64,000 bases of DNA, taken from assembly GCF_003260195.1 (NCBI RefSeq), contig NZ_QEIH01000006.1, positions 186,001 to 250,000 on the forward strand, written 5' to 3'. Of this stretch, positions 12,466-52,222 are shown piece by piece. This DNA comes from Lutibacter citreus. Its GTDB lineage: Bacteria > Bacteroidota > Bacteroidia > Flavobacteriales > Flavobacteriaceae. The notes below the pieces were generated by a model. The model did no database searches, was not told the DNA's origin, and was given only the letters and a program-made list of their open reading frames with translations. Both the position numbers and the translations under genes were made by a program. Numbering within the stretch: position 1 is the stretch's first letter; the number at the start of each line of letters is the position of its first letter.

Positions 12466-14397
12466 TTAGTAGCACCTTATTTCATAGAGTCTACCAACCT
12501 TTTTACCATATGTATTTTTCAATATAACTTTTACCGCTGTTGCTTTAATTGAATCAAAACTAAATTTGATTAATCTGCGCTTGTTTTTCTTTATGTCTCC
12601 TACTTGAATCCATTCACCTTTAACTCTAGCTTCAACAGATAACGACTCCATTAGTTCTGGAGGAACAGTATTTATATTTTTATCACCAACTTTTGAATCA
12701 TGCCTCATCATTATATTCTTCCTTGTATTGGTATCACATTTAATTTCTATTTTCGAAATATTTTGTGGTTTTATCCATTCTAAAACAACGTCAGCTGGTA
12801 ACATTTCTGATTGCCAATGGTTTAATTCTTCTCTTTCCTGAACATCTCTAGAGTACCCATTTAATAATAATTTAGGATCACCTGAACTTGTTGAACTAGC
12901 AACTATTAAAGAAGCTTTTTTTGCTAAATCTTTAGTGTCTTTTGCCGGCCGATTTGGAATATAAGCATCATCTCTCAACAATTGCTCTTGTAATTCATTA
13001 ATATGCTTTTCTCTTAATGTGCGAGCATCTATACCTTTTTCAACACAAAGTACAGCTGCCGTACCTACTGCTTGCCCCATAGTAGCGCAGGTTCCTTGAA
13101 GACGTGTTGATGAAAGTGCAATATGGCTAACACTTACATTTCTACCAGCAAACATTAAATTTGGTACATTTTTAGAATACAAACTGCCAAATGGTATTTC
13201 ATAAACTTTATTAAATCTATGATGAAAAAAGCTTGGAGGATCACTTAAGTTTTCAATTCCTCCAGGATTATGTTCATCTAAAGACCAACCTCCATAACCA
13301 ACTGCATCATCAAAATGACGAAAATTTAAAAGATCACCTTCTGTAAGAATATGATCTCCCATAAACCTTCTAGATTCTCTTCTACCAGGAAATGAGCCCA
13401 CCCAATCAAGGGCTATATTTTCAGATTCTAGATGATTTCCAGAGTTCTTAATATAGTCCCAAACACCATACATATGTCCCATTATTCTTTGTCTAATATC
13501 ATCCGCCTCTGCAATAATATCGTCATCACTACCCACTTCAACCCACCAATATCCTTGCTTAAACTGCTTAATTTTCCTATCTTCTTTTGCAGCTTCCTCA
13601 GCTTTAAAAGGAATGGTATAATGTGGTGCTTCAAATGGCATTGGTTTTCCCATGTCTTTGGTACTAAACATAAGTGTTGATCCCATTTGCCAACCATCTG
13701 GTTGGTCTGGAGCAAATTTTTCATTAAACTCTTCTTTTCCTTCTCTACCAGTCCTATACAAAGCACCAGAAGTAGCAGCCATTAAACCATCTCCAGAACA
13801 ATCTATAAACTGTTTGGCATAAATTGTAAATGTCATTTCAGTTGTAGACTGCCAGCATTTTACTGATTCTATGCGTTCCCCTTTCATTTTAGCCTCTATA
13901 GCTTGAGTGTTCATCAAAACCTTTAAATTTGGTTCTTCTGTAACATAATTGTACACAACATGATCCCAAACATGCCATGATTCTTGAGGATTATGAAAAC
14001 GATTGGCTAATAATAATTCTTCAACAACTCCTGTTTCCCTCTCTGGATGTGCTCCCTTTAAATGCGTAACACCATTTAAATGTACTCTTATTTCACTTGA
14101 AGCATTTCCTCCTAAAACTGGTCTGTCTTGAACTAACATTGTTTTAGCTCCATTTCGAGCTGCGGAAACTGCAGCACAACAACCAGCAACTCCACCACCA
14201 GCAACCAATACATCAACATATATGTCTTTATTTCTTTTAGGAGTTCCCGTTTTTTCGGACTCCATATGTTTCCACTTATCATATTTACGATTGTCTGAAT
14301 TTGAAACTTCAGAAGACGCAGCAATTACACTCATTGGAATTATAGATGCAGCTACTGCCCCTGTTACTCCTTTTTTAAAAAAATCTCTTCTTTTCAT
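12466..14397 (-). CDS. Tat-exported FAD-dependent oxidoreductase (FAD_oxidored family)
   Basis: 643 aa. Tat-type signal MKRRDFFKKGVTGAVAASII, then an FAD-binding Rossmann motif GGGVAGCCAAVSAARNG at 67-83, followed by QDRPVLGGNASSE, a hallmark of the PF12831 FAD-dependent oxidoreductases. The last 150 residues look like a beta-sandwich, possibly carbohydrate-binding. It should oxidise or reduce a small substrate, perhaps a sugar, in the periplasm; the substrate is unknown. A paralogue of the same length and layout is at 35073-37001. Both genes have a similar upstream sequence including TTTGGACT and TACATT. The downstream sulfatase is probably co-transcribed. Family firm, role inferred. Confidence 0.88.
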   Translation of the reverse strand: MKRRDFFKKGVTGAVAASIIPMSVIAASSEVSNSDNRKYDKWKHMESEKTGTPKRNKDIYVDVLVAGGGVAGCCAAVSAARNGAKTMLVQDRPVLGGNASSEIRVHLNGVTHLKGAHPERETGVVEELLLANRFHNPQESWHVWDHVVYNYVTEEPNLKVLMNTQAIEAKMKGERIESVKCWQSTTEMTFTIYAKQFIDCSGDGLMAATSGALYRTGREGKEEFNEKFAPDQPDGWQMGSTLMFSTKDMGKPMPFEAPHYTIPFKAEEAAKEDRKIKQFKQGYWWVEVGSDDDIIAEADDIRQRIMGHMYGVWDYIKNSGNHLESENIALDWVGSFPGRRESRRFMGDHILTEGDLLNFRHFDDAVGYGGWSLDEHNPGGIENLSDPPSFFHHRFNKVYEIPFGSLYSKNVPNLMFAGRNVSVSHIALSSTRLQGTCATMGQAVGTAAVLCVEKGIDARTLREKHINELQEQLLRDDAYIPNRPAKDTKDLAKKASLIVASSTSSGDPKLLLNGYSRDVQEREELNHWQSEMLPADVVLEWIKPQNISKIEIKCDTNTRKNIMMRHDSKVGDKNINTVPPELMESLSVEARVKGEWIQVGDIKKNKRRLIKFSFDSIKATAVKVILKNTYGKKVGRLYEIRCY

Positions 14398-20889: not shown

Positions 20890-22269
20890 TTAGTTAGAAC
20901 AATCTGTATTCACAAACTCTTCAGGTATAATATTTTCTTGATATAAAAAACCAGTTACTTCAATTGGCTCTTGCACAAAAACTGTTTGTTCTCCTGCTTT
21001 ACAAGTATAATTTGCATCTGCTAAAATTGCAGCTATAGATGGTCCAATTGTTATAGCATCATCATACGAACTTGAAGTACTTGGATCAGCAATCTCCGAT
21101 GGATACCAACCAAAATGCTTAGACTTTAACTCTGCATTTTCACCATAGGTAGCTTTTACATCTTTTACGTAAACAAACTCAAAAGTACCCTGAGTTAAAC
21201 CAATAGTTTGATCGTATTTGTTTGAAATAAAACCAGATTCTATTCTTACTGCAAATCCTGCACTACTTGTTGTAACTCCTTCAATATCTACAACTCCGTT
21301 ATGCATTGCATGTGGAGATATCATTACTGCTGAATTTCCATTTGTACACGAAATATTTCGACCTACAATTTTATCTAAACCACCAACTCTTGGTTGCCCT
21401 ACTACTTGTAAATCATTTAATCCTGTAAAACCTGTTTCTAATCTTAAAGTTGCTCCTCCAACACCTGATAAATCTTTAAATAAAATGTTAGTTGCAGATT
21501 GAGTTTGTACCGTTCCGTAACCATAATGTGCATTTTCAACATGAATATTTTTTACAATTCCATTTTCAGGAATTTGATAAGAATTATTATAATCATCACC
21601 TCCCATAGTAACTACAGAAAACTTTGTATAAACATCGTCAACCATAATATCTGATATCAAAAAATTGGTAACTTTATTGCAATTAACTACTTGTACATTT
21701 GGGTTATTAACTTGTGTAAAATCAACTTTAAACTTATTTCCGTTTGTACTAGTTATTGAAATGTTTTCAATTGGTAATTGATTTTTTACTCCTAAATGAA
21801 AAATAGAATAGTTCTTTGTATCATTTCTATCTGTTGGTCTAATTACAGCATTTTCGTCAATTTTAAGATGAACATTGGATTTTAAATGAATATCATCAAA
21901 AGAAAAATTTCCTTCAGGAATAGTTAAAATCCCACCTCCGTTTGCTGACACATCATCTATTGCTTCTTGCAGTATAACACTATCATCTGTTGAAAAAATA
22001 ATATCAGCGTTATAATCTGTCACCAGATTTTTATTATAGTTTGAATTTGATACAATTGTATAAAAAAGATCTTCATCATCTAAAAGTCTAGGAACATCCA
22101 CAACTTCTACCTCCTTCTCTTCTTCAACCTCTTCAATCTCTTCAACCTGTTTCTCTTCTTCAATTAAATCTACATCTTTCATATCATCTGAAGAACATGA
22201 TGGTATTGCAAAAAATAATGTAAAACAAAACCAGATTGATATTGTTACTAAATTACGTGTGTTTTTCAT
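20890..22269 (-). CDS. GH82-like iota-carrageenase, lipoprotein
   Basis: 459 aa. The lipoprotein signal ends in IPSCSSDD (Cys25), followed by a strongly acidic linker at 36-57. A right-handed beta-helix follows, with AIDDVSANGGGILTIPEG at 103-120. The block HYGYGTVQTQSATNILF and GGATLRLET, then VMISPHAMHNG and FAVRIESGF, matches what I recall of the Alteromonas fortis iota-carrageenase (GALRMETD, VMFGPHFMKNG, SAVRSDSGF). Gln255 and Glu278 align with its Gln222 and acid Glu245; the base Asp247 is replaced by Gly280. GH82 enzymes cut beta-1,4 linkages in iota-carrageenan. A paralogue with a T9SS tail is at 59621. It lies 15 bases after the GH150-like gene, as in the other pair. Confidence 0.72.
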   Translation of the reverse strand: MKNTRNLVTISIWFCFTLFFAIPSCSSDDMKDVDLIEEEKQVEEIEEVEEEKEVEVVDVPRLLDDEDLFYTIVSNSNYNKNLVTDYNADIIFSTDDSVILQEAIDDVSANGGGILTIPEGNFSFDDIHLKSNVHLKIDENAVIRPTDRNDTKNYSIFHLGVKNQLPIENISITSTNGNKFKVDFTQVNNPNVQVVNCNKVTNFLISDIMVDDVYTKFSVVTMGGDDYNNSYQIPENGIVKNIHVENAHYGYGTVQTQSATNILFKDLSGVGGATLRLETGFTGLNDLQVVGQPRVGGLDKIVGRNISCTNGNSAVMISPHAMHNGVVDIEGVTTSSAGFAVRIESGFISNKYDQTIGLTQGTFEFVYVKDVKATYGENAELKSKHFGWYPSEIADPSTSSSYDDAITIGPSIAAILADANYTCKAGEQTVFVQEPIEVTGFLYQENIIPEEFVNTDCSN

Positions 22270-22284
22270 TTTAAAAAATTTAAA

Positions 22285-24927
22285 TTAATAAGCAATATCA
22301 ATAAACCTAATTGAACCTGCAGGTACCAAAAATTTAGATGTATTATTAATTATTTCTACAGTTTCATTACTTAAAATATCCGTAGCTGATTTCGGTTTTC
22401 TATGTTGAAATATTACAACTACTTTTCTTTCTTGAGGATTGATATAACCAGGATCAACTAAAATTAATCTAGTATGATTATCATCTATTTTAACAGCACT
22501 CCAAGATGCTCCCTCTACAATAATTGGTAATTTATCAGCGCCTTCTTTTACTGTTTTAGTTATGGTTGACCCAAATTGTTTTGCCTCAATTTTTTCTCCG
22601 TTCACAAACCCAACTTTGGCATTAGACACAAAATATGGTTTGTTCTGCCCTTCAACCAATTTCTCACTTTCAATTGGAGCAACAGGCACCATTCCGTAAG
22701 GCATTATTGGCATATAATTTAGCCAACGGTATTTAACACCTAAAGCAGCATTTGAAAAATCATATTCTGGTACACTTGCACCAGCCCAATGCATTTGTCC
22801 TACTGAGAAAACTGCATTGTCATCATCCTTCTTATAATGTTTTAAATTATGGTGATCATCTACTGAATGAATTAAATGTGCATCAACTTCTTTTATTAAA
22901 TGCCAAGATCCTATTGATTGAATGTTTTCTTTTTCAACAACAGGAAGCACTCCAGATTTCATTAATGCAAATAACACATTTAGCCCTGGTCCTTTTGTGA
23001 AGTTATTATCTATAATAATTCCATAACGAGCACCATATGCTGCCATAACAACACCTTGACGTAAATAAGGAGAAATTGAATTTTGCCCTCCAGGAGTTAA
23101 CGGTCTCCAACTAGTTGGATTATCATCAACCAAACGCATTGCAAAATCATTTACATAACCACCAGACATCATTCCTACTCTTCCTGCTAAATTTAAATCT
23201 TGAATACGGTTACTTGTATCTTCTGATGCTGGAATAAGAATATCACTATATTTTCCTGAGAAAAACATTTCTTTCCACAATGGTAAATGTGATGTTGCCG
23301 CCCAAAACATATTTTTATATCTAAAATATAATTTGGCTCTATTATTTTTTCGAATTGCTTTTGCCAAGCGAGGTAAATATTCTTTTACAAAATGAACAAC
23401 TCTTGGATCGTCAACATTTGCCATTTCAGCATATACAAAGCCATAACAAGTTGTTGGTGCTACTTCTAATATTTTTTCTAAAGTTTCAATTTGAATATAA
23501 AAAGGATCGTTTCCGTGTCCTGCCCAAAAAGTAAAAGGTTGTCCTTGCGCTTCATAATCTCTTGCCATTTGAACAATTTCTTCTCTGGTTTCTTGATATT
23601 TACCACGCTTATCTTTCTTCAAAGCAGTTTTCCCGATTTTCGCAACTAAATGTGAGCGATCAGTTCCTTCTTTTGGTGCTTTTTGAATTACAAATTTAAT
23701 ATCTTGCCCCTTTAATTTTTTAACTTTTGAATCAATTTCTTTTGAAGTAATCATCACCCAATCCTCATCAGATTTTTTTTGATAACTTGGAGGTGTAAAC
23801 ATTAATGTTTGCTGATAAAGCTTATCAATATTTTTTTCAACCTCTAACATTCTACCTTGCATTTTGTGAGTTGTATTCCACCAATTATTTTTACTTACAT
23901 CGTAAAAATATAATGTGTTTCCTCCATCAACTTCACCTGCAGCAATTAACTGATTAGACTTTGGTTCAAATACAAAATCGTTGTAAACCATAGCTCCGTA
24001 TCGTTCCCCAGATTTAGCAATTAATTTTCCTTTTGAATCTAGCACAAATAAAATCCCTCCATTTTGAAACATTATTTCATTTCGCTTTGGTAAAAATGTT
24101 CCTTGAGAATGTGCATAACGCTGTGTATCTTTATTAGAAGCTTGAAATTGAACAATTACATTAAAATCTGAATCTAATCCAACAACTAATGCCTTAAAAG
24201 AAACATCTCCAAAAAACAAAATATCATCTTTACTATCTCCATTAATATCCGCAATTTCAACATCTGTAACCATTGCTTTTCTTAATTCTTTTAGTCTTTT
24301 ATCATTAAGAGAAACACTTTTAATAACTTCTTTAGTTTCAGCATCTATAAAACCCATAAATTCCCAACGAAATTTATCATGATTATAAGTGTATACAAAT
24401 AAAGATTGCTTTCCATCTCCAGTAAACCTACCTGCTTCAATTTTTCTAACAACACCTTTAATTGGAGTTGTTGAAACTAATTTTCCTTTGGAATCTAATT
24501 CGTACAATTTATTATTATTTCCACCTGCAAAAATTTGAATTGTTCTATTATTTACAACAGCAACTTCTGAAAAACGAACTTTAACCTCAGGTGTAAATTT
24601 CCACAGTAATGATCCATTACTATCCCAACAATAAATATTTCCGTCTCCACTTGCTGCAATTAAATCATCGTTTCCATCTTCATTTACATCTACAGCATTA
24701 ATTTCAAACAACACAGCCTCTTCATCTGTGGCATTCCTCCATAGGTTTTTCCCTTCTAATGTGTATGAAGAAACACCTCCACTTAACTCAGATAAATAAA
24801 ATACATTATTACCCTTTACATTTGCTATAATACAGTTTCTAATTCCGTTTTCTTTTGTTGAAAAATTTTGAGCACTACAACTAACTGAAAATAAAATAAT
24901 TACTAGTATTATAAATTTGTTTCTCAT
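22285..24927 (-). CDS. GH150-like (lambda-carrageenase-type) protein, divergent copy
   Basis: 880 aa. Signal MRNKFIILVIILFSVSCSAQ may be a lipoprotein signal (Cys17). The first 330 residues form a beta-propeller with FG-GAP/PQQ-like repeats: DVNEDGNDDLIAASGDGNIYCWD, ADINGDSKDDILFFG. The C-terminal half has FWAGHGNDPF, LAGRVGMMSGG and DFSNAALGVKYRWL. Propeller plus unrelated C-terminal domain at about 900 aa is the known layout of the lambda-carrageenase founding GH150. Two closer paralogues occur at 27089 and 61141; this copy differs at several shared blocks (MMSGGYVNDFAMR for WAAGSMNQWGTR). It heads a unit with the GH82-like gene. The GH150 label rests on architecture and context, not on a search. 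Confidence 0.6.
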   Translation of the reverse strand: MRNKFIILVIILFSVSCSAQNFSTKENGIRNCIIANVKGNNVFYLSELSGGVSSYTLEGKNLWRNATDEEAVLFEINAVDVNEDGNDDLIAASGDGNIYCWDSNGSLLWKFTPEVKVRFSEVAVVNNRTIQIFAGGNNNKLYELDSKGKLVSTTPIKGVVRKIEAGRFTGDGKQSLFVYTYNHDKFRWEFMGFIDAETKEVIKSVSLNDKRLKELRKAMVTDVEIADINGDSKDDILFFGDVSFKALVVGLDSDFNVIVQFQASNKDTQRYAHSQGTFLPKRNEIMFQNGGILFVLDSKGKLIAKSGERYGAMVYNDFVFEPKSNQLIAAGEVDGGNTLYFYDVSKNNWWNTTHKMQGRMLEVEKNIDKLYQQTLMFTPPSYQKKSDEDWVMITSKEIDSKVKKLKGQDIKFVIQKAPKEGTDRSHLVAKIGKTALKKDKRGKYQETREEIVQMARDYEAQGQPFTFWAGHGNDPFYIQIETLEKILEVAPTTCYGFVYAEMANVDDPRVVHFVKEYLPRLAKAIRKNNRAKLYFRYKNMFWAATSHLPLWKEMFFSGKYSDILIPASEDTSNRIQDLNLAGRVGMMSGGYVNDFAMRLVDDNPTSWRPLTPGGQNSISPYLRQGVVMAAYGARYGIIIDNNFTKGPGLNVLFALMKSGVLPVVEKENIQSIGSWHLIKEVDAHLIHSVDDHHNLKHYKKDDDNAVFSVGQMHWAGASVPEYDFSNAALGVKYRWLNYMPIMPYGMVPVAPIESEKLVEGQNKPYFVSNAKVGFVNGEKIEAKQFGSTITKTVKEGADKLPIIVEGASWSAVKIDDNHTRLILVDPGYINPQERKVVVIFQHRKPKSATDILSNETVEIINNTSKFLVPAGSIRFIDIAY

Positions 24928-27088: not shown

Positions 27089-29839
27089 TTAAAGCGCTTC
27101 TTTCAATTCAATATCTAAAAACACAAACAAACCGCAAGGAACAGCTACTGTAGCATTTTCCTTGTTAAATTTCAACTCTTCATTTGTTATTAAATTGGTG
27201 ATTTTTTTCACTTTTGCCGTATGAAAATTAATTATTGCAATTCTATCATTTGGGTTCACATAACCACCATCAACTAAGGTTAATCTTAAGTGTTTTGGTG
27301 CTGTTTGCGCCGTAACCCACGCTACACGTCCATTAACTGTTAAAGGTAATTTTTTAGCACCTTCTTCAATGGCTTTTTTAACTGTAGTGTAATAAGTATC
27401 TGCTCTGTAAGTTGTAGTCTTATTTTTATCAGAATAGTAATTTTTTCCATCCATAAAAATTTCAGTTGTATTGTTTTTATAAATTGGATTTAAATGACTT
27501 TCTAATGTTCCTCTCAATGATTTTTCATCTACTGGCGGTGTAGTTAATACCAATCCGTTTGGATAGGTTGGTAAAAACTCTAATCTACGCTCTTTAACTC
27601 CAGCTGCATATTTAGAAAAATCCCACTCAGTTACCGGTCCACCTGCATAAACACCTTGAGTACGTCCAACAACCATTGGGTTTTCTTTTTCAAACTTTTC
27701 ATCATAAAGAGTTACATCTTTTACTTCCTCCCCCTTAAGAAATAAAGGATGTGGATCTAACATACTTAAATGAACAGGATTAATACTTAATATTTCTTTT
27801 CTTGTTGGCACATATAATATACCAGAAGAAATCATATCCCATAATACTTTTTGATACTTAATATTTACTGTTGTGTGGTGAACAACAGAAGCTCCGCTTG
27901 CTATTTGATGCACAAGCATTCTCAATGCATGATTTGGTACTTTTTGATATGATAATTGGCGTAACCGATCATAACATGGATTGTCTCTTGTAAAACGAGT
28001 TCCCCACTGATTCATTGAGCCAGCAGCCCAAAGTCCTATTCTGCCAGAAATACTCATATCCATTACCTTACTATTTGATTCTTCCATTGATGACACAAAA
28101 GAATCGGCAAATTCGCCTGAAACAAGTCGTTTCCACATTGGAGTATAAACTACAGATTGCCAAAAAGTAAATTTATTTCTTATAGAAATAAAACTATTTG
28201 TTCCTTTCATATGAGCTGCCAATGGATATATAAAATCTTCAACCATCCACTCAGCATCTTTATCATGAGCTCCTAATTCCGCCAAAATTGGAATCACAAT
28301 TTTATCGCCTGCTGCATCAATTACTTTTTTAGCTGTAGGTAAAGAATAAAAATAAACATCCCTACCATGTCCCTGCCAATATTGAATTCCTGATGGAGCA
28401 GCTTCCAATCCTTTTTTGAATCTAGCTAAAGCCTCACCACCTGTTAAATCATATTTTTTACGATGGTCGCGAGTTTCTCTTGACACTTTATTTTCCATAC
28501 CTGAACGATCCCAGTTTTCAACATGTGGATATAACTTTTTTACACCATCTATGTTAATAAAATTTTTAGTATTTCCACCTGATAAAGCTGCCACCTCTTC
28601 ACTACTTATACCCGACGACATTACTTTTACAGCTACTTTATGATTTTCCCATTTAGGGATTTTGAATTTTTTTAACTTTTTACTGAACTCTTTTGTATTT
28701 TCTAAAATCTTTGCCATTTTCCCTGAAGGCTCCAATTTTTGAAATTCCTTTTTCCAAGAGTCGTTTGTGTAATCAATTATATGAATACAACTACCACCAC
28801 TTTGTACACTTCCTAAAATTAATTTTCCATTATCTCCATCTTTACACATATCATTAAAAGCATAGTTACTTTCAATAATTTCAGTTTCTTCTCCATTTTT
28901 TTCTGCGGAAACCAAAAACATTCTATTTCCAAAAAGCACATAATATTTGAATCCATTTTTATAGGGAATTGCTTCAACAGAAGCTAATCTATATCCTGGC
29001 TTCCCTAAACTATTTCTTTCATTTTTAAATTTAAAATCCATTTTTTCAGCCGAGCATTTTTCAGCAGAAGCAACAGACACTTGCATTTTAGCCAAGCCAT
29101 TTCCTCCTAATAACACTTCAGTATTTCCAGTAATAATATCATTTACAGAAAAAGTCCCTGGGCAAGAACCTCCGCCTCCTTTACCTTTCATTTTCGCAGA
29201 TTGGTACGGTTTATCAGCAAAAGGTTTAAAGTAATACAATACACCTTGATCGTAATTTGTATTAAAAGCACTTAATACTACCAAAACATCTTTTCCGTTT
29301 TGTTCAATTTTCCTAAGGTAATTTATAGCGTGATTTGGATGCTTTTTATCAATACTATAAGATGCTGACGGAATAGATTTTAACAAGGTTCCTTTTGTAG
29401 ATAAATAATGAATATTTTTATCATAACCCCCACAAACTACATAATTGGTTTTATGTGCACTTACCATAGTTGCCGTTAATATTGGTGCTGAGTTTTTTTT
29501 GAACTTCCATAATAATTCACCATTATCATCTAAACAATATAAAGTTCCATCTGCATTTGCAGCTAACACCTCATCCTTACCATCATTGTCTATGTCTGCA
29601 CAATAAATATCGTTGTTCATAAAACCAGAAAGTTCATTTTTCCACTGTAATTTTCCAGAATAATCATAACATACTACGGTACCTTCATAGCTAGTTCCAA
29701 TAATTCTAGTTTTGCTTTTATACTTCATGATTCTAACTTTCATGATGGTATAATCTGTTTCTTCACTTTGAATTCCTCCAAATGCCAATACACTTTGTAA
29801 ACTAAAAAGTATTACAAAAAAACATGCAATTTTTCTCAT
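27089..29839 (-). CDS. GH150-like (lambda-carrageenase-type) protein
   Basis: 916 aa with signal peptide MRKIACFFVILFSLQSVLAFG. The N-terminal beta-propeller (to about 360) has repeats such as DIDNDGKDEVLAANADGTLYCLD. The C-terminal region has YWQGHGRDVYFYSL, SGRIGLWAAGSMNQWGTR, VPNHALRMLVHQIASGA and WDFSKYAAGVKERRLEFLP, and ends CGLFVFLDIELKEAL. Length and layout match lambda-carrageenase (GH150, about 940 aa), which cuts beta-1,4 linkages in lambda-carrageenan. It is closely similar to the product of 61141-63972. It is the last gene of a unit with the FAD oxidoreductase, FMN-motif protein, CstA and GH2. Its C-terminal sequence recurs as fossils at 40051 and 44919. Confidence 0.62.
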   Translation of the reverse strand: MRKIACFFVILFSLQSVLAFGGIQSEETDYTIMKVRIMKYKSKTRIIGTSYEGTVVCYDYSGKLQWKNELSGFMNNDIYCADIDNDGKDEVLAANADGTLYCLDDNGELLWKFKKNSAPILTATMVSAHKTNYVVCGGYDKNIHYLSTKGTLLKSIPSASYSIDKKHPNHAINYLRKIEQNGKDVLVVLSAFNTNYDQGVLYYFKPFADKPYQSAKMKGKGGGGSCPGTFSVNDIITGNTEVLLGGNGLAKMQVSVASAEKCSAEKMDFKFKNERNSLGKPGYRLASVEAIPYKNGFKYYVLFGNRMFLVSAEKNGEETEIIESNYAFNDMCKDGDNGKLILGSVQSGGSCIHIIDYTNDSWKKEFQKLEPSGKMAKILENTKEFSKKLKKFKIPKWENHKVAVKVMSSGISSEEVAALSGGNTKNFINIDGVKKLYPHVENWDRSGMENKVSRETRDHRKKYDLTGGEALARFKKGLEAAPSGIQYWQGHGRDVYFYSLPTAKKVIDAAGDKIVIPILAELGAHDKDAEWMVEDFIYPLAAHMKGTNSFISIRNKFTFWQSVVYTPMWKRLVSGEFADSFVSSMEESNSKVMDMSISGRIGLWAAGSMNQWGTRFTRDNPCYDRLRQLSYQKVPNHALRMLVHQIASGASVVHHTTVNIKYQKVLWDMISSGILYVPTRKEILSINPVHLSMLDPHPLFLKGEEVKDVTLYDEKFEKENPMVVGRTQGVYAGGPVTEWDFSKYAAGVKERRLEFLPTYPNGLVLTTPPVDEKSLRGTLESHLNPIYKNNTTEIFMDGKNYYSDKNKTTTYRADTYYTTVKKAIEEGAKKLPLTVNGRVAWVTAQTAPKHLRLTLVDGGYVNPNDRIAIINFHTAKVKKITNLITNEELKFNKENATVAVPCGLFVFLDIELKEAL

Positions 29840-29843
29840 TTGT

Positions 29844-32477
29844 TTAATTTTTATTTCCTTCTGGATTACTTCTTAATTCCATTAATTGCTGATCTTTACC
29901 AACTAATTGCAGTTTTAACATTTTAACTTCTTCTTGAAGTTTTTTAATATTTGTAGGTAATTTTTCTTCTTTAACTTGTTCTATTGTTACTTTATCTTTG
30001 TTAACCTTTTTAGAATTTGAAACATAATTTTCATCAAAAAGCATTTTCTGTTTTGAAGGTTTTGATTCTAAAGTAATTTCATCTGATTTTAACCCTTTTA
30101 CATAGGCACGAACCTTAATAACACCAGGCTTATTAGTAGCTCTTATTAATGTAGTTGCAATACCAAAAGAAGATTTAGCTGGGTTACTCATATTTTGAAT
30201 TCCTCCAATAACTTCTGCAGGGCCTTCAACTTCAAAGTAAACAAATTCTTCTGCCAATACTTTCTTTGTTCCATTTAAATCTGCAATGGTAGCTCTAATA
30301 GGAATAAAATCAGATCCATCTGCTATTAATTCTAATCCTTCATCTGCTATGCTTAATTCTATTTTTTCAGATCTCATGGCATAGGGTTTTACATTTTCCA
30401 CAACCAATTCACCGTTAATAAGACCTTCAGCAATCATATATCTAACTGCACCTCTCTGATCTTCTTTTCTATGACGAATTTTATCTAAATAGAAAACATC
30501 CTTAAACACAAAAGGCGGATGCGGTAAACCATCATATTTTGGGTCTGTAGATGGTTTTTGAGTTCCAAAATTTTCTCCCATCCAAGTCAATTTTATTTCA
30601 TCACAATTACTATAAATAATAACATCACTACCTGATAATTGCGTTAATTCATTTGTATTATAAATCATAGCACCAGTTTTAATACCTTTCAATTTATAAT
30701 CTGCTGAATTTTGACTTTGATACAAATAGTACGTATAACGAGGCAATCTTAACACATTTAAATGCCCTCCCAAAAACGGATCTGGGTGGTATCCCCTTTG
30801 GTGGTCAATTCCTGCCCACATTGCACCACCAATACGAACCTTATCTGTTTTAAATCTTTGTGATAATTGTTGAGCTTGTCTTAATGACTGATCAAGCATT
30901 GCTTTTTCTCCCCATTCACGTTTTACTCGTACAATTGAATTTTGCGAATACCAATCGTCAACTTCATTACCATCTCCAAATTCTCTATTAAACGAATTCA
31001 CCGTTTTAGAATTCCCATGATAATACACATCTAACCCTCCTTTTTCAGCCTCTTCATAGTCTGTTACTGTGTACATTCCTGGAAAAGGATATTCTGAATG
31101 TGCAGCCTTGTGCATATTATTCATTGCGTGATCTGGCTGAGAAGGTGTTTCATTAATAGCTGTTTCCCACAATAAAATTGAGGGTCTATTTCTATCTTTT
31201 CTAACTAAATTATGAGAATCTTCATATAAACGTTCTTCAAATATCTTTTCTTTAAAATTGAAAAAGTGCCAACCCGGATTTGCTGTTGTTGTTAACATTC
31301 CTAATTCATCACAAGCATCATAAAAAGCATCGTCTTGAGGGTAATGACCAACTCTAATAATGTGACTACCTCCTTCGCGTAATAGTTTTACATCTCTATA
31401 ATGACTTGAATTTGGAACGGCATTACCAACATACGCATAATCTTGATGACGATTTACACCTACCAGTTTTTTGCCTATATATTTATTGTTTACAAACAAT
31501 CCTTCCGCTCCTTTCATTTCGAACAATCTAATTCCAAAACGAGTTCTTGTTTGATCTACAATTTTTCCATTTACAATAATATCAGTTCTAATAAAATGCA
31601 AATAAGGATCATCTGGATGCCATAAATGAACATTTTCTACCTTTAAATCTTTTGATAATTGTTTGGATTTTCCCGCTTGTAATCTAACCGATTGTTGCGT
31701 TGATTTAATTTCTTTAAAATCTGAATTTTCTAAAACAGATTTAACAATTATAGTTTGTGTTTTATTCGAATTATTAGCAATTTCTGTTCTAATTCCAATT
31801 TTAGCATCATTCCCTTTAATTTCTTTTGTTCCAACAAAAACACCACCGCCAGCAACTGTTTTACTAAGCTCTGTAAGTGTAATATGAATTGGTTTTGTTT
31901 GAATTAAATAGGTATCTCTATAAATTCCGCCTAAATAACTAAAATCCAACCCACCTTGTTGTTTCCCCGGAGGATATAGTTTACTATCGCTATTATCAGC
32001 CAATACAGCAACAACATTTTTTCCTTTTTTCAATACTTCTGAAATGTCAGCAGTAAAAGGCAAATAACCTCCGTAATGTTCTGCTACCAATGATCCATTT
32101 ACCCATACTTTACCGACTCCCATTACAGCCTCAAAATATAAAAATGTATTTGAGGAAGTTGAACTCTCTTCAACTGAAAATTCTTTTCTATACCAAGCCT
32201 TCCCTTGGTAATTTCTACCTCCACTGGCATTTTCTGGTAAAATTTCTAATCCGTGAGGTAAATTTGCAGCTTCCCAATTTGAATCGTTAAAATCTATTGT
32301 TTCTGCACCTTTAACATCTCCTTTATAAAAACGCCAGCCAATATTAAAATTAAACACCTTTCGTGGACTATTTTCTACTTCGTAAAAACCTGCTGTAGAA
32401 AATTTTTGTTGTGCTTCTGTTCTATTTGAAATTACTATTAATAATAATACAAATAATCCTAATTTTAAAAACTTCAT
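29844..32477 (-). CDS. GH2 beta-galactosidase-like enzyme with C-terminal coiled coil
   Basis: 877 aa with signal peptide MKFLKLGLFVLLLIVISNRTEAQ. Order: sugar-binding domain (LPHGLEILPENASGG), immunoglobulin-like domain, barrel with VGHYPQDDAFYDACDELG at 376-393, acid/base Glu443 in WETAINETP and nucleophile Glu499 in SFNREFGDG, then a DUF4982-like domain (DVIIYSNCDEIKLTWMG). The last 45 residues form a likely coiled coil (KKLQEEVKMLKLQLVGKD), unusual for GH2 and suggesting oligomerisation or docking. Gaps are 4 bases to the GH150-like gene and 5 bases to CstA, so translation is tightly linked. Substrate inferred to be a beta-linked galactose unit. Confidence 0.9.
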   Translation of the reverse strand: MKFLKLGLFVLLLIVISNRTEAQQKFSTAGFYEVENSPRKVFNFNIGWRFYKGDVKGAETIDFNDSNWEAANLPHGLEILPENASGGRNYQGKAWYRKEFSVEESSTSSNTFLYFEAVMGVGKVWVNGSLVAEHYGGYLPFTADISEVLKKGKNVVAVLADNSDSKLYPPGKQQGGLDFSYLGGIYRDTYLIQTKPIHITLTELSKTVAGGGVFVGTKEIKGNDAKIGIRTEIANNSNKTQTIIVKSVLENSDFKEIKSTQQSVRLQAGKSKQLSKDLKVENVHLWHPDDPYLHFIRTDIIVNGKIVDQTRTRFGIRLFEMKGAEGLFVNNKYIGKKLVGVNRHQDYAYVGNAVPNSSHYRDVKLLREGGSHIIRVGHYPQDDAFYDACDELGMLTTTANPGWHFFNFKEKIFEERLYEDSHNLVRKDRNRPSILLWETAINETPSQPDHAMNNMHKAAHSEYPFPGMYTVTDYEEAEKGGLDVYYHGNSKTVNSFNREFGDGNEVDDWYSQNSIVRVKREWGEKAMLDQSLRQAQQLSQRFKTDKVRIGGAMWAGIDHQRGYHPDPFLGGHLNVLRLPRYTYYLYQSQNSADYKLKGIKTGAMIYNTNELTQLSGSDVIIYSNCDEIKLTWMGENFGTQKPSTDPKYDGLPHPPFVFKDVFYLDKIRHRKEDQRGAVRYMIAEGLINGELVVENVKPYAMRSEKIELSIADEGLELIADGSDFIPIRATIADLNGTKKVLAEEFVYFEVEGPAEVIGGIQNMSNPAKSSFGIATTLIRATNKPGVIKVRAYVKGLKSDEITLESKPSKQKMLFDENYVSNSKKVNKDKVTIEQVKEEKLPTNIKKLQEEVKMLKLQLVGKDQQLMELRSNPEGNKN

Positions 32478-32482
32478 ATCTT

Positions 32483-33913
32483 TTAGTTCTCTTCTTTTAT
32501 TTTAGAAATTGATTTGGAAAATAAAAACCACATTCCTAATAATATTGAAACTGTAATTCCTATAGAATAAGACAATCTATAATTTAATTTAAATCCTTCT
32601 GGAGCCACTAAAATATATGTTGTTACAACTGCTGTCATAAACATTGCTGGAATTAAAATAAACCCTGATTTCTTACCTTGAGTTTTCATATAAACGGCAG
32701 CTGCCCATAATACTACTGTCGCTAACATTTGATTGGACCATCCAAAATATCTCCAAATAATAGCAAAGTTAATTTGAGTTAACCCTATAGCTATTATAAA
32801 AATTGGGATAGTTACCATTAATCGTTTCACTAAATTACTCTGATTGATATTAAATGAATCTGCAATGGTAAGTCGTGCACTTCTAAAAGCTGTATCTCCA
32901 GAAGTAATTGGAGCTGCAACCACACCAAATATTGCTAGAATTCCACCTATTTTACCAAGCATTGTATTACAAATAATATTTACAACCCAAGCTGCATTAT
33001 GTCCCTCTTGTGCCATAGTTTCTCCCAACTCACGAACACCTCCAAAAAACGCCATAGCAACAGCAGCCCAAATAAGAGCTACAATACCCTCTGTAATCAT
33101 TGCTCCAAAAAATATTTTTTTCCCGTGAGATTCATTTGAAATACAACGTGCCATTAATGGCGATTGTGTTGCATGAAATCCGGAAATCGCCCCACAAGCA
33201 ATGGTTATAAATAACATAGGAAATATGGGATATTTATCTGGTGAGCTATGCATATTAATTAAATTTTCAGGGGTTAATTCAGGAATTGTATACCCTTGAG
33301 TTAACAATGCAATAAACAATCCTACCGCCATTATTAATAACGACAACCCAAAAATTGGATAAATTTTCCCAATTAATTTATCAATAGGAATCATAGTTGC
33401 TAATAGATAATAAACAAATATTATCACAACTAGAATTGAAGCATTTATTCCTGTTAATTCTTGTAAAATTGTTGCGGGCCCTTTTACAAAAACAACTCCA
33501 ACTAAAATAAGCAGTACAACCGCAAAAACTCTCATAAAGTGTTTTACACCGTTTCCTAGGTATTTACCAACAATTTCGGGAATACTTTCTCCATCGTGAC
33601 GAATAGATAACATACCCGAAAAATAATCGTGGACTGAACCTGCAAATATACATCCAAAAACAATCCAAATAAATGCTACTGGTCCCCAAAGCGCTCCTGC
33701 AATAGCTCCAAATATTGGACCTAATCCTGCAATATTTAAAAACTGAATTAAAAATATTTTTCGCAATTTTAAAGGTACATAATCAACACCGTCTTGTTTT
33801 GTTATTGCAGGTGTTTTACGATTTACATCTATTCCAAATTTCCTTTCTACATAAGTTCCATAAATAAAATATCCGGCAATTAATACGGCAATGCAGATTA
33901 AAAATGTAATCAT
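32483..33913 (-). CDS. CstA-family carbon starvation transporter
   Basis: 476 aa, a polytopic inner-membrane protein with about 12 hydrophobic segments. The N-terminal region carries the CstA signature: FLNIAGLGPIFGAIAGALWGP and GSVHDYFSGMLSIRHDGESIP. CstA-family proteins import pyruvate or peptides; this is the shorter form compared with the roughly 700-residue E. coli protein. It lies between a GH2 gene (5 bases) and the FMN-motif protein (18 bases) and so belongs to the five-gene unit. It could import a small oxidised product, but this is inference. A 33-base piece of its 3' end recurs, 30 of 33 identical, at 47221-47253. Confidence 0.9.
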   Translation of the reverse strand: MITFLICIAVLIAGYFIYGTYVERKFGIDVNRKTPAITKQDGVDYVPLKLRKIFLIQFLNIAGLGPIFGAIAGALWGPVAFIWIVFGCIFAGSVHDYFSGMLSIRHDGESIPEIVGKYLGNGVKHFMRVFAVVLLILVGVVFVKGPATILQELTGINASILVVIIFVYYLLATMIPIDKLIGKIYPIFGLSLLIMAVGLFIALLTQGYTIPELTPENLINMHSSPDKYPIFPMLFITIACGAISGFHATQSPLMARCISNESHGKKIFFGAMITEGIVALIWAAVAMAFFGGVRELGETMAQEGHNAAWVVNIICNTMLGKIGGILAIFGVVAAPITSGDTAFRSARLTIADSFNINQSNLVKRLMVTIPIFIIAIGLTQINFAIIWRYFGWSNQMLATVVLWAAAVYMKTQGKKSGFILIPAMFMTAVVTTYILVAPEGFKLNYRLSYSIGITVSILLGMWFLFSKSISKIKEEN

Positions 33914-33931
33914 AATACGTTGGTTTTTTGG

Positions 33932-35065
33932 TTAAAGTTGATCTTGGTATTCTTTATAAAAAATATTTAATTGTTGTTCTTGGTTTTTGTTTAATTGTTG
34001 TTTTTTTAAAAACCAATACACATTTCTAGAAATTAACAAATCACTTTTTAATAATGGTATTAATTGCGATACTACTTCTAAAGAGTTTGGGTTTTTACTT
34101 TTCATTAATCTTAAAAACAATGAAATTTCTTGGTATGATTTTAAATTTGAAATAAGCAAACTCAATTCATTATAATATCCTTTTGGAGGAACTAATTCTG
34201 ACTTCAATAAGGAATTCAATGAAACTATTTTTTGTGATTCATTTCCTTTTTGAAGTAGTTTTTTTATTGCCGAAAAATATATTTTAGAATCTGAATTTTC
34301 AAAATAATTTACAGCAGTTTTTAATAATTTATTGTTGCTTGTAGTCTGTTTAATAACTTCTTCAATAAGAATTTTTTTATAAATTTTTCGTTCATCTAAC
34401 TGTTCTACAGCAAACAATTGTTTGTCTACATTTTTACTATTTAACAGCTTTAAAAAATTTTGTTTTTTTAATGATTCGCCTGCAAAATTTCTAATAATAG
34501 TTTCAATATCTCCGTGTGCCCAATGCCAAAGTGTAAAACAAGTTAAAGCCGCACCAGGTACAGTATCTTCTTCATCTAATTCCAACGCAGTAGCTCCGGA
34601 AACTGCATCAGCATCGTTATGCGTTTCATCTACAACTGTTAAAATTTCATCAATTCTTACATTTTTAAATGGGGAATCTAAATCCGAAAGTATACTTTGT
34701 AATTTTACATAATCTTCTTTTTCAAAAAGGTCGGCTTCATATTTTTCTAATGTTACACCTTTATCTAGTTCATATTTTTGATACCCCCCTAAATTGTTCC
34801 AATAAATACGAACAGGTACAACTTTACAAACACTTTTTACACAAATAACCGATTCTACGTTCATATAGAATTCAACGGCCAATCCTTTTTTATTTCTAAC
34901 CTCAACAAGTATTGACTGTTCCAATCCATTATCCTCATTTCCAGGATGCCCAACTGTTATTTGGTGTTCAATTTTTTTTATTTTTGAAAAAGAACTATCC
35001 TCTCCATTTTGGAAAAAAAACCAAATTGGAAAGAATAGCAAAATAAGAATTTTATTGAAATTCAT
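33932..35065 (-). CDS. Exported protein with FMN-binding (flavinylation) motif and helical repeats
   Basis: 377 aa with a hydrophobic N-terminus (KILILLFFPIWFFF) acting as signal or anchor. Residues 152-159 read ADAVSGAT, matching the D-x-x-S-G-A-T site where ApbE attaches FMN to Thr in NqrC/RnfG-type domains; Thr159 would be the site. A Cys pair (Cys75, Cys80) lies in VICVKSVCKV. After TVPGAALTCFTLWHWAHGD the C-terminal 180 residues are helical and HEAT-like. The family is otherwise not recognised. It sits 7 bases after the FAD oxidoreductase gene and 18 bases before CstA. A role as electron carrier for the oxidoreductase is plausible but inferred. Confidence 0.6.
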   Translation of the reverse strand: MNFNKILILLFFPIWFFFQNGEDSSFSKIKKIEHQITVGHPGNEDNGLEQSILVEVRNKKGLAVEFYMNVESVICVKSVCKVVPVRIYWNNLGGYQKYELDKGVTLEKYEADLFEKEDYVKLQSILSDLDSPFKNVRIDEILTVVDETHNDADAVSGATALELDEEDTVPGAALTCFTLWHWAHGDIETIIRNFAGESLKKQNFLKLLNSKNVDKQLFAVEQLDERKIYKKILIEEVIKQTTSNNKLLKTAVNYFENSDSKIYFSAIKKLLQKGNESQKIVSLNSLLKSELVPPKGYYNELSLLISNLKSYQEISLFLRLMKSKNPNSLEVVSQLIPLLKSDLLISRNVYWFLKKQQLNKNQEQQLNIFYKEYQDQL

Positions 35066-35072
35066 ATATTAA

Positions 35073-37001
35073 TTAATAACAACGTATTTCAAACATTTTT
35101 ATACTTTCTGCTCCGTGAGTTTCTTTCAATTTAACACGAATGGCGGTAGTTTTAACTTCATTGAAATTAACTTTTACCAATCGCGTTTTATTATATTCTA
35201 CTTTTCCTACTTCAACCCAATCACCTTTAATTCGAGCTTCAACACTTAAATTTTTAATTAACTCTGGAGGAATTCCAATAATTTGTCCTTTGTTTTTTTC
35301 AGGGTCTTTATGCATCATCATTTTACGTTGCAAGTTTGTATCAAACTTCATTTCAACGCTTGTTAAATTTTGAGGTTTACTCCATTCTAACTGTAACTCT
35401 TCATTTAAACCTTCAGATTGCCAATGGTGAATTTTATCGACTTCATCACGTGACACACCATCTAACAATAATTTAGCCTCTCCAGAAGATGTAGAAGACG
35501 CAAAAATAGTTGCCACTTTTTTAGCTTTATCTTTTGGATCATTAGCTGGTCGGTATGGAAAATAAGAATCATCACGCAATAATTGCTCTTGCAATTCATT
35601 CATATGCTTTTGATATAAACCTCTTGGATTTACACCTTTTTCTGCACACATTGCAGCTGCAGTTCCTGCTGCTTGTCCCATCATAGAACAAGTTCCAATA
35701 ATTCTAGTTGAAGATAGTGCCATATGAGTAACACTTACATTTCTACCTGCAAATAATAAATTAGATATGTTTCTAGAATATAAACATCTAAAAGGTACTT
35801 GATATACTTCGTTAAATCTAGAGTGAAAATAACTAGCAGGTTCTTTAAGATTTTCAATTCCACCTGGGCAATGTTCATCTAAACTCCACCCTCCAAAAGC
35901 AATAGCATCGTTAAATTGAGTATTACCTAACAGATCTCCTTCTTTTAAAATATAATCTCCCATAAATCTGCGAGATTCTCTTCTTCCAGGAATAGAGCCA
36001 ATCCAATCCAACGCAATATTTTCTGCTTCAGGAAAATCTCCCGAATTTTTAATATGGTCCCAAACTCCATAAAAATGCGCCATTAATCTATGACGAATTT
36101 CATCTCTTTCACCAATAATATCAACTTTACTACTTAATTCAACCCACCAAAATCCTTCTTTTACTTGCTTTACTTTTCTATGCTTGTCTTTAAAAGCTGT
36201 TTCAGCATCAAAAGGAATAGCATAATCTGGCGCATAAAAAGGTACAGGTTTTCCCATGTCTTTGGTAATCATCATAAAACAATCTCCCATTACCCATCCA
36301 TCTGGCTCATCAGGTGCAAATTTCTCATTAAATTCTGCCTTACCTTCACGTCCCATTCTAAATTCAGCACCTGCTGATGCGGCCATAAATCCGTCACCTG
36401 AACAATCGCAAAACATAGCTGCATTTATGGTAAAATCTGTTTCTGTAGTTAATTGTCTACAAACAACTGATTTAATTTTATCGTCATTCATTTCAACACT
36501 TAATGCTGAAGTATTCAATAATAATGTTAAATTCTTTTCACGGATAACATAGTTATATAAAACGTGATCCCAAACAGGATAAGATTCTTGTGGATTGTAA
36601 TGCCAATTTTCAATTAAAAGTTCTTCTACGATACCTGTTTCTCGTTCAACTTTATGTTTGTTTTGCAAGCTAGAAACTCCATTAACAGTAACCCTCATTT
36701 CACTGGAAGCATTACCACCCAAAACGGGTCTATCCTGCACTAAAACTACTTTAGCTCCATTTCTAGCTGCGGAAACGGCTGCAGAAATACCAGACATTCC
36801 ACCACCAATAACTGCAACATCAACATTTAGTGTTTTTCTTCTAATTGGATCTCCTTTAATTCCTTCCACTCCTTCATTCCAATTAAATAATCTTTTATCT
36901 GAACTACTTGAAGTTTGTGCAGTAATATCTCCCATAATTGGAAATAATCCTGCGGCTAATGCTCCTTTTGCTCCTGTTTTAAAAAAGTTTCTACGTTTCA
37001 T
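35073..37001 (-). CDS. Tat-exported FAD-dependent oxidoreductase (FAD_oxidored family)
   Basis: 642 aa. Tat-type signal MKRRNFFKTGAKGALAAGLF, then GGGMSGISAAVSAARNG at 66-82 and QDRPVLGGNASSEMRV, the FAD-binding features of PF12831 enzymes. The C-terminal 150 residues look like a beta-sandwich. It is a close paralogue of 12466-14397 (shared WDHVLYNYV/WDHVVYNYV, PGRRESRRFMGD and GWSLDEH blocks). As first gene of a five-gene unit, it is followed directly by a protein with a flavinylation motif. It probably oxidises or reduces a sugar-derived substrate in the periplasm. Family firm, substrate unknown. Confidence 0.88.
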   Translation of the reverse strand: MKRRNFFKTGAKGALAAGLFPIMGDITAQTSSSSDKRLFNWNEGVEGIKGDPIRRKTLNVDVAVIGGGMSGISAAVSAARNGAKVVLVQDRPVLGGNASSEMRVTVNGVSSLQNKHKVERETGIVEELLIENWHYNPQESYPVWDHVLYNYVIREKNLTLLLNTSALSVEMNDDKIKSVVCRQLTTETDFTINAAMFCDCSGDGFMAASAGAEFRMGREGKAEFNEKFAPDEPDGWVMGDCFMMITKDMGKPVPFYAPDYAIPFDAETAFKDKHRKVKQVKEGFWWVELSSKVDIIGERDEIRHRLMAHFYGVWDHIKNSGDFPEAENIALDWIGSIPGRRESRRFMGDYILKEGDLLGNTQFNDAIAFGGWSLDEHCPGGIENLKEPASYFHSRFNEVYQVPFRCLYSRNISNLLFAGRNVSVTHMALSSTRIIGTCSMMGQAAGTAAAMCAEKGVNPRGLYQKHMNELQEQLLRDDSYFPYRPANDPKDKAKKVATIFASSTSSGEAKLLLDGVSRDEVDKIHHWQSEGLNEELQLEWSKPQNLTSVEMKFDTNLQRKMMMHKDPEKNKGQIIGIPPELIKNLSVEARIKGDWVEVGKVEYNKTRLVKVNFNEVKTTAIRVKLKETHGAESIKMFEIRCY

Positions 37002-37073
37002 TTTTAGGTTTTATGTTTCAATTATATAAAAATCATCAATTATTTTATTACAATGTAATGTTTAAGTAAAATA

Positions 37074-37088
37074 AATGTACTTCTCAGT
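37074..37088 (-). promoter_or_regulatory. Candidate regulatory element upstream of the FAD oxidoreductase at 37001
   Basis: Minus-strand ACTGAGAAGTACATT, 73 bases upstream of the start and preceded by TTTGG, exactly as at 14515-14529. A related sequence, GCTTTAAGCTACATT, is at 37147-37161. Function unproven; part of the likeness to the 14515 copy may come from duplication of the two FAD genes. Confidence 0.35.
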
Positions 37089-37271
37089 CCAAATATCGAA
37101 GATTTAATGGGTGAAAGCCTAAAAAGAAGCATTACAAAAACTTAACAATGTAGCTTAAAGCCTCTATTTTATAGATTATTGTTATTAAAGGCACTTAAAA
37201 ACAATAATGTAATCGATAGCTTATAATCTGCTATTAAACCATTAAATACAAAGAAAAAAATCTATTAACGC

Positions 37272-38426
37272 TTAGTTTTTTCTACGCTCAGCCTTAACAA
37301 TTTTATTCATGTGTTTATCAAATGCTTTACCGTTAAAAGGTACAACTACAATTTTACTTGCGTGATTATCATTACCTCTATCTTTACCTTTAAACACATC
37401 AATCACAGAAAAAATAAAATGAGTTACATGTCCATTTTCTACATATGCAGTTGGTCTCTCTATAAACTGCCAATCGTTAATAATACCATTGGTATATTTA
37501 AATATTTTAGATTCTTCTTTTTTAAAAGCGATTCCTCTATATTTCCAATCAGAAATTCCATCCATTGAAGAAAAATGATGAGATGTTTTTGTTGGCCAGT
37601 GATTATAAACAATATGATACATTCCTCCACTAAACCATATTGTTGGATCTTCATTTTTTGTTTGGGGCAATTCAGGGTAGTTTTTGTAAATACGATCTCC
37701 CATTATTTTATAAGGGCCTAATATTCCATTTTTACTTAACATTGGCGCGGTAGATCTTCCAATAATCATATAATCTCCATCCGGTCTCAGTAATATTTTA
37801 ACATTGGACATATGTCCATATGACGCCTGTTTTTTGTTTTGATACCTTGCTAAACCTTCATTAAAACCATTTGGATCAACCTTAATTTTACCTAATAACT
37901 TAAAAGGTCCATCAGGCGAATTAGAAACAAAGACTTCTCCTTCTGTAATTTCGCTCGTTACAACAGCATATCTTCCATCATGCATTCGTAATCCAATAAC
38001 ATTATGTCCCATGCCTTCTTTCCAATTAGGGTAAATTAAACCTTTATCAACATAAGGTCCCATAATATTATTACTAACTGCGTGCATTCCTTTTGACCCT
38101 AAATGCCAACCTTCACTATGCGACATTTTTTGATCCCAACGACTTGCATAAATATGATAGTTACCATCATCACTTTTTACTATTCTTCCATCCCAATAAC
38201 AATACTTTTTAAGTTTAGCATCTTCTAAACCATTAGCTGTATCACGTGGCATAACAACTTTATCTCCCCAAGTTCCTTTTAAAATAAGATCAGATTGAGG
38301 TTCCATAGGTAGAAAGAAATCTACTAATGATTTTTTAGATTGGGCAGTTATTCCAAAAGACGTGGCTAGAACCAAATAGATTCCTACTAATGAAATTCTT
38401 AAAATTTCATCTTTAAAATGTTTCAT
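37272..38426 (-). CDS. GH43-like five-bladed beta-propeller glycoside hydrolase
   Basis: 384 aa; signal peptide ends near TSFGITAQ. The sequence has repeated blades typical of GH43/GH117-type propellers: YWDGRIVKSDDGNYHIYASRW, MHAVSNNIMGPYVDKGLIYP, DGRYAVVTSEITEGEVFVS, and PTIWFSGGMYHIVYNHWP. Candidate catalytic acids are Asp in YWDGR, Glu in VTSEIT and Asp in NEDPTIWF. Relatives are common in Bacteroidota and Planctomycetes loci and are usually annotated only as glycoside hydrolase family protein. An exo-activity on galactose or 3,6-anhydrogalactose would fit the locus, but this is inferred. It lies 11 bases after the sulfatase gene at 38438. Confidence 0.7.
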   Translation of the reverse strand: MKHFKDEILRISLVGIYLVLATSFGITAQSKKSLVDFFLPMEPQSDLILKGTWGDKVVMPRDTANGLEDAKLKKYCYWDGRIVKSDDGNYHIYASRWDQKMSHSEGWHLGSKGMHAVSNNIMGPYVDKGLIYPNWKEGMGHNVIGLRMHDGRYAVVTSEITEGEVFVSNSPDGPFKLLGKIKVDPNGFNEGLARYQNKKQASYGHMSNVKILLRPDGDYMIIGRSTAPMLSKNGILGPYKIMGDRIYKNYPELPQTKNEDPTIWFSGGMYHIVYNHWPTKTSHHFSSMDGISDWKYRGIAFKKEESKIFKYTNGIINDWQFIERPTAYVENGHVTHFIFSVIDVFKGKDRGNDNHASKIVVVPFNGKAFDKHMNKIVKAERRKN

Positions 38427-52210: not shown

Positions 52211-52222
52211 TGTTCAAATTTA

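Follow-up and report, generated by a model that had tools for sequence, protein, structure and literature searches.

Why a polysaccharide locus should keep a flavin-dependent oxidoreductase, a protein with a flavinylation motif and a transporter in one compact unit is the question raised by a 64-kb stretch of the Lutibacter citreus genome (64,000 nucleotides of contig NZ_QEIH01000006.1, hereafter the window), which is a lambda-carrageenan locus. On its minus strand, a flavin adenine dinucleotide (FAD) oxidoreductase of family PF12831 (FADox1, 642 amino acids (aa), 35073..37001) is followed by a 377-aa protein carrying the motif DAVSGAT (33932..35065, here called the GAT protein), by a CstA-family transporter (476 aa, 32483..33913) and by enzymes of glycoside hydrolase families 2 and 150 (GH2 and GH150), the four gaps between these genes measuring 7, 18, 5 and 4 bases. 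The nearest gene upstream of these five lies 270 bases off, and no Bacteroidota-type promoter (by its consensus) was found upstream of FADox1, in 36990-37320. The initial annotation had described this gene order, which reading frames and Pfam confirm, and had proposed that the FAD enzyme acts on a carrageenan-derived sugar in the periplasm, that the second protein passes the electrons on through flavin mononucleotide (FMN) and that CstA imports a small product. A conserved motif, the pairing with FAD enzymes, links to ApbE and the recurrence of CstA together suggest that the GAT protein is probably a previously undescribed ApbE substrate that serves its partner FAD oxidoreductase.

ApbE attaches FMN to threonines of such motifs, and the motif of the GAT protein (residues 153-159, 34589..34609, minus strand) ends in Thr159 (codon 34589-34591), the putative attachment site. 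The protein matched no family above the Pfam cut-off and none at E 0.01 in NCBIfam, and in one annotated record, from Flammeovirga kamogawensis, it is labelled 'hypothetical protein'. Its modelled architecture comprises a hydrophobic N-terminus, a motif domain at about residues 28-200 and C-terminal helical repeats of the HEAT/ARM-like kind. A search for related loci with this protein yielded 22 loci, and in the alignment of 23 rows formed with the window protein, D153, G157, A158, T159, C75, C80, C176, W180 and H181 were invariant. The larger family sample, which like all searches here lies within the phylum Bacteroidota, holds 131 loci (L006-L027, L046-L054 and L157-L256; 18 of the 74 places from the search of the order of genome G190 were left out) with 134 GAT reading frames, 124 of which are distinct after copies sharing the last 150 residues had been dropped; the window's own protein stands outside the 124. 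None of the 124 lacks the motif Asp, the motif Thr or the Cys pair, so that the conservation of Thr159, on which the earlier reading depended, extends to every homologue. Because the 23 rows agree throughout at D153, G157, A158 and T159, and the 124 at Asp and Thr, DAVSGAT would be more than a chance occurrence, and judged by their sequences the homologues are a real family. The general form of the ApbE acceptor motif, Dxx[S/T]GA[S/T], is therefore seen in the window protein with an invariant acceptor. Export is predicted from the sequence, the hydrophobic N-terminal helix spanning residues 2-19 in the model.

The pairing of GAT genes with FAD oxidoreductase genes is near-universal. Of the 124 GAT genes, 119 have a PF12831-type gene no more than 300 bases away on their own strand; at L048 the FAD enzyme lies farther off, with ApbE between it and GAT. 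The enzymes were detected with a long-enzyme profile and a short-enzyme profile, and three further long ones were assigned manually (L246, verified by Pfam, and L253 and L254, from length and position alone). In 86 of 120 cases the enzyme gene lies upstream of GAT and in the other 34 it lies downstream; 100 enzymes are of 500-1000 aa, 43 with a twin-arginine (RR) motif in the first 45 residues and 57 without, and the others comprise 13 short (about 455 aa), four long (about 1055 aa) and three cut enzymes. Reading frames often overlap, with a median gap of -4 for the 57 mid-length enzymes (500-1000 aa) that have no RR motif. An apparent class of GAT genes without FADox (18/124) was discarded, as 11 of them have a short PF12831-type enzyme (about 455 aa) and three a long one (about 1054 aa); eight short enzymes were confirmed by Pfam. 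The FAD enzyme was not found near GAT in four cases (L242, L244, L202 and L203); L244 and L202 lie at contig ends, L242 and L203 do not, and a PF12831 gene at E 1e-50 is absent from genome G440, which holds L203. The GAT relatives of L202 and L203 are about 290 aa long, the former adjoining a DUF5777 beta-barrel gene and the latter with Porin_O_P nearby. At the level of genomes, a PF12831 gene at E 1e-50 occurred in 23 of 24 GAT-positive versus 4 of 20 GAT-negative genomes (Fisher p 1.7e-7, both sets being the first of their kind on the family list rather than a random draw, and with kinship ignored).

Links to ApbE point in the same direction. A search of the genome for ApbE, a check suggested in the initial annotation, found three genes, one of them (as read from sequence starts) behind an Nqr-like cluster, and the genome search placed none on the window's contig. 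Elsewhere 21 of the 124 GAT genes, in 19 loci, have an ApbE gene no farther than 3 kb away on their own strand, with Pfam confirmation at L048 (E 1.8e-77) and L049 (E 1.6e-78). All 80 GAT-positive genomes that were tested for it, among the 90 others known from the family and order searches, also contain ApbE; as ApbE is common and was counted in GAT-positive genomes only, this means only that the flavinylation reading survives. A precedent is offered by DUF2271 and DUF3570, two families outside FMN_bind that, according to Meheust et al. 2021 (PMC8238504), were flavinylated on co-expression in Escherichia coli and lost the modification when motif residues were replaced, so that in their case motif plus apbE link predicts flavinylation. 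These families share with GAT the [S/T]GA[S/T] motif without an FMN_bind model and the co-location with apbE; GAT differs in belonging to another family, with a PF12831 partner, a place in polysaccharide loci, an ApbE that is mostly not adjacent and a flavinylation that is predicted.

Several observations weigh against this reading, and a first group concerns the fold. The initial annotation had looked to an FMN_bind fold for the 377-aa protein, and this expectation gained no clear support. The window protein gave no match to FMN_bind (PF04205), and none of the 23 rows reached the cut-off of 22 bits; five matched below it (E up to 1; L016 19.3, L022 16.5, L023 14.5, L019 13.9 and L021 13.9 bits), over stretches of 15-41 residues round the motif. 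Profile-profile comparison likewise confined the likeness to 12-15 columns at the motif: the real profiles scored 38.6 and 37.2 versus maxima of 18.7 (60 shuffles) and 19.9 (100 shuffles) for column-shuffled ones, and the hhalign probability fell from 80 to 0.19 once the motif columns were masked, the FMN_bind side being thin (12 segments passing the motif-and-position filter, of 32 loci). A profile search of PDB found no significant FMN_bind chain, and an FMN4 domain (8p2b) appeared at E 0.44 in the motif region. The full model (predicted local distance difference test (pLDDT) 85.0) has five strands in its N-terminal part and a helical solenoid towards the C-terminus; armadillo-type repeat proteins make up most of the 50 Foldseek matches listed for it, of which none reaches E 0.001. 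For the motif domain (pLDDT 81.9, the motif loop below 50), none of the 50 listed of 231 matches was significant; NqrC (4xhf), an FMN_bind protein, stood among them twice, at rank 26 with E 2.1 and TMq 0.30 and at rank 31 with E 2.5 and TMq 0.35, the second match having the highest TMq of the 50. Membership of GAT in FMN_bind was sought by Pfam, profile-profile and fold comparison, and since the likeness is found only round the motif, GAT is proposed as a likely ApbE substrate and not as a member of FMN_bind. RnfG, NqrC and other FMN_bind proteins share the Dxx[S/T]GAT motif with GAT; in the GAT model 13 residues separate Thr159 from the next helix, which begins at residue 173, while the helix of FMN_bind follows directly.

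The motif itself, the placing of ApbE and the surroundings of the pair supply further points on the same side. The last four letters of the motif are SGAT in 72, AGAT in 25, TGAT in 17, TSAT in 4, SSPT in 3, SSAT in 2 and SGST in 1 of the 124 homologues, so that SGAT or TGAT accounts for 89, and in ten the GA is altered while Thr is kept, which ApbE may reject. No ApbE lies within 3 kb of 103 of the 124, as in the window, and when the 124 motif domains are placed on a tree, almost all ApbE-adjacent GAT proteins fall in one group (the order of G190), L048 standing separately; parsimony gives six changes for this adjacency, two of which concern an additional GAT gene of a locus that had been counted before, so that there would be about two independent events and hence about two lineages. 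The sequence relatives of FADox1 in PDB overlap mainly its FAD-binding Rossmann segment, and the enzymes that flank the pair differ, so that the neighbours do not reveal the substrate. Some of these results would also fit a GAT protein that is never flavinylated and acts, with its helical repeats and Cys pair, as a structural or chaperone-like partner of FADox, its motif being kept for another reason: FMN_bind likeness stops at the motif region, the motif departs from GAT in the ten cases, and ApbE is mostly distant. This explanation is judged unlikely, as ApbE belongs to the same unit in 19 loci and accompanies GAT in every positive genome tested, Asp and Thr never vary, and one ApbE can serve several substrates. 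The altered-motif homologues, in which flavinylation may be lost or changed, are those of L191, L245, L247, L248, L250, L251, L252, L255, L212 and L047; eight of the ten sit beside short PF12831 enzymes.

With regard to the enzyme itself, FADox1 matches PF12831 over the whole domain (E 3.5e-90, profile positions 1-416 of 416), a family whose function is, to our knowledge, largely unknown. It begins with MKRRNFFK, and this RR signal suggests export in the folded state through the twin-arginine translocation (Tat) pathway. We give about even chances to the view that FADox1 and GAT together make up a flavin dehydrogenase of two proteins that acts on glycans in the periplasm. ApbE would attach FMN to Thr159, FADox1 would leave through Tat folded with its FAD and there oxidise a hydroxyl group on a fragment of a glycan, and the electrons would pass to the FMN on GAT and on to the respiratory chain, while the helical-repeat tail of GAT may dock the partner enzyme. 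Electrons might also flow in the opposite direction, GAT carrying them from the quinol pool to FADox, which would reduce a sugar-derived substrate. Among solved sequences, those nearest to the Rossmann segment are flavocytochrome c fumarate reductases, with urocanate reductase among the matches, but the best structure match covers only about 45 residues of the FAD-binding fold, an acceptor substrate is not apparent, and such a reduction is less expected in aerobic flavobacteria; the reductive direction therefore seems improbable, even though the flavinylation survey reports FMN segments feeding such reductases (PMC8238504). Flavinylated enzymes of the fumarate and urocanate reductase kind resemble the proposed pair in joining an FMN-bearing part to an exported FAD oxidoreductase, which in those enzymes it feeds, and differ from it in that here two separate proteins, the PF12831 family and a glycan context are involved.

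At E 1e-10 the L. citreus genome holds five genes of PF12831: two touch a GAT gene, two lie about 20 kb from one and one is on another contig. FADox2, a second enzyme of the GAT-associated type in the window (12466..14397, minus strand), has no GAT neighbour of its own and is 59% identical to FADox1; many GAT-adjacent enzymes elsewhere are nearer to it (58-69% identical) than to FADox1, and it may share the window's GAT protein, which might thus serve both. The second FADox-GAT pair of the genome (G000:C30:499850-501934, L046) has a short GAT protein of 281 aa and lies among sulfatase- and PF06439-like genes.

The third gene of the unit encodes a CstA protein by PF02554 (E 7.8e-58, 197 bits versus a cut-off of 27, in three stretches); against the NCBIfam equivalog for the pyruvate/proton symporter CstA (NF011590) it scored 95.3 bits where 1188 are needed. 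CstA occurs on the same strand within 5 kb of 19 of the 124 GAT genes and within 60 bases downstream of 15, so that the three-gene order described in the initial annotation does recur, next to FAD enzymes of three sizes (about 640, 600 and 452 aa). At L051 and L053 the transporter is 62 and 56% identical to that of the window, which indicates that the order is not limited to close relatives, and parsimony requires 11 changes on the tree, so the link would have been gained or lost repeatedly. A sodium:solute symporter cluster (one member Pfam-checked) is found in 20 loci, and L051 has both kinds of transporter. Known CstA proteins import pyruvate or peptides, and CstA, or the sodium:solute symporter in some loci, would here import a small product. 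Flavinylation of GAT would need FAD outside the cytoplasm, and a CstA directly behind GAT might instead export flavin for the maturation of GAT by ApbE and of FADox; this is highly improbable, as CstA is absent within 5 kb of 105 of the 124 GAT genes, the other symporter occurs instead in 20 loci, the known substrates point to import, and the genome has four other FMN_bind proteins, yet the window's CstA is its only one.

Clusters named from sequence starts as SusC-like and SusD-like occur within the units of 44 and 42 loci, respectively, and 48 of the 124 GAT genes have a sulfatase gene no more than 6 kb away on their own strand. Other neighbours include GH2, GH31, GH43, CelD_N (GH9-like) and a GH42-like protein, and in 20 loci an 855-aa protein with a below-cut-off match to GH88/GH127. 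Such varied glycoside hydrolases indicate that the unit is not tied to carrageenan. Of the earlier proposal, therefore, an FAD enzyme working with an FMN protein gains from the motif, the ApbE links and the pairing, whereas the FMN_bind fold gains no clear support and the carrageenan-specific role is too narrow for these neighbours. At L007 the FADox1, GAT and CstA proteins are 95, 71 and 91% identical to those of the window while the flanks are different, so that the unit behaves as a cassette; between these relatives, the GAT motif domain is 91-92% and the tail 51-53% identical. Proteins combining DUF7133, HEAT and cytochrome c in two pair loci (L051 15494-17752 and L173 12640-14499) are a candidate electron acceptor.

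In the window, the unit continues with the GH2 enzyme (29844..32477, by its Pfam GH2 domains) and the lambda-carrageenase-like GH150 enzyme (27089..29839), both on the minus strand; the latter has three CGLA domains above the Pfam cut-off (PF25290, PF25291 and PF25292, which define GH150), the middle one at E 5.7e-136. Among 33 reading frames of at least 150 aa, three are of the GH150 type (22285-24927, 27089-29839 and 61141-63972, one of them divergent) and 11 are sulfatases. Two products, of 679 aa (16100-18139) and 459 aa (20890-22269), match no Pfam family at E 0.01 and may be new enzymes. A gene for a PF06439 3-keto-disaccharide hydrolase (51338-52210, E 7.8e-20) and a ThuA-type gene (52223-53215, E 3.9e-29) adjoin, as parts of a 3-keto-glycoside route, and a gene 36% identical to the former lies near the second pair at L046. 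FADox could accordingly be a glycoside 3-dehydrogenase whose 3-keto product is cut by elimination through these two proteins (51338-53215). This is quite unlikely: in the 131 loci the KDH and THUA queries, single sequences that may miss distant members, gave two best matches each, and the FAD-dependent glycoside 3-oxidases found in print (PMC10646112) share the proposed chemistry of sugar oxidation and are O2-using oxidases of the GMC superfamily, not of PF12831.

The distribution of GAT is patchy, even inside the genus (counts include each search's own genome). It was detected in 8 of 395 genomes across the phylum and 5 of 38 in the genus (E 1e-5, the phylum search with the first profile). 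With a wider profile at E 1e-8, the window's family gave 40 positive genomes among 397 sampled, and the order of G190 gave 52 among 390. A plasmid search returned two records, from Flammeovirga and Persicobacter.

Published systems offer partial parallels. The carrageenan locus of Zobellia galactanivorans (Ficko-Blean et al. 2017, PMC5698469), likewise of a marine Bacteroidota and with sulfatases and glycoside hydrolases, concerns kappa/iota-carrageenan; the legend of its Fig. 9 names fumarate reductase/succinate dehydrogenase (FR/SR) and other redox enzymes among the compared genes, and flavin, FAD and CstA do not occur as terms in the main text. A laminarin-locus paper (PMC11345257) places an FAD-dependent oxidoreductase, of PF12831 or another family, beside a SusC/D pair, and the words 'carbohydrate' and 'polysaccharide' are absent from the main text of PMC11334425. 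In the open-access literature, no paper was found that joins flavinylation, CstA or PF12831 with polysaccharide loci.

A wider view, tentative and on balance doubtful, is that of a widespread new redox branch in Bacteroidota, in which flavinylated helical-repeat carriers serve PF12831 sugar dehydrogenases, periplasmic glycan oxidation, perhaps with bond cleavage, is wired to respiration, and CstA or sodium symporters import the oxidised product. If the proposed role of GAT is true, a protein without a family model would be an ApbE substrate family across many Bacteroidota genomes and an assay partner for PF12831 enzymes. Polysaccharide loci would then hold a respiratory redox step that models centred on hydrolases and sulfatases have passed over, and the recurrence of the pair in many other Bacteroidota points to such an overlooked step in the breakdown of complex sugars.

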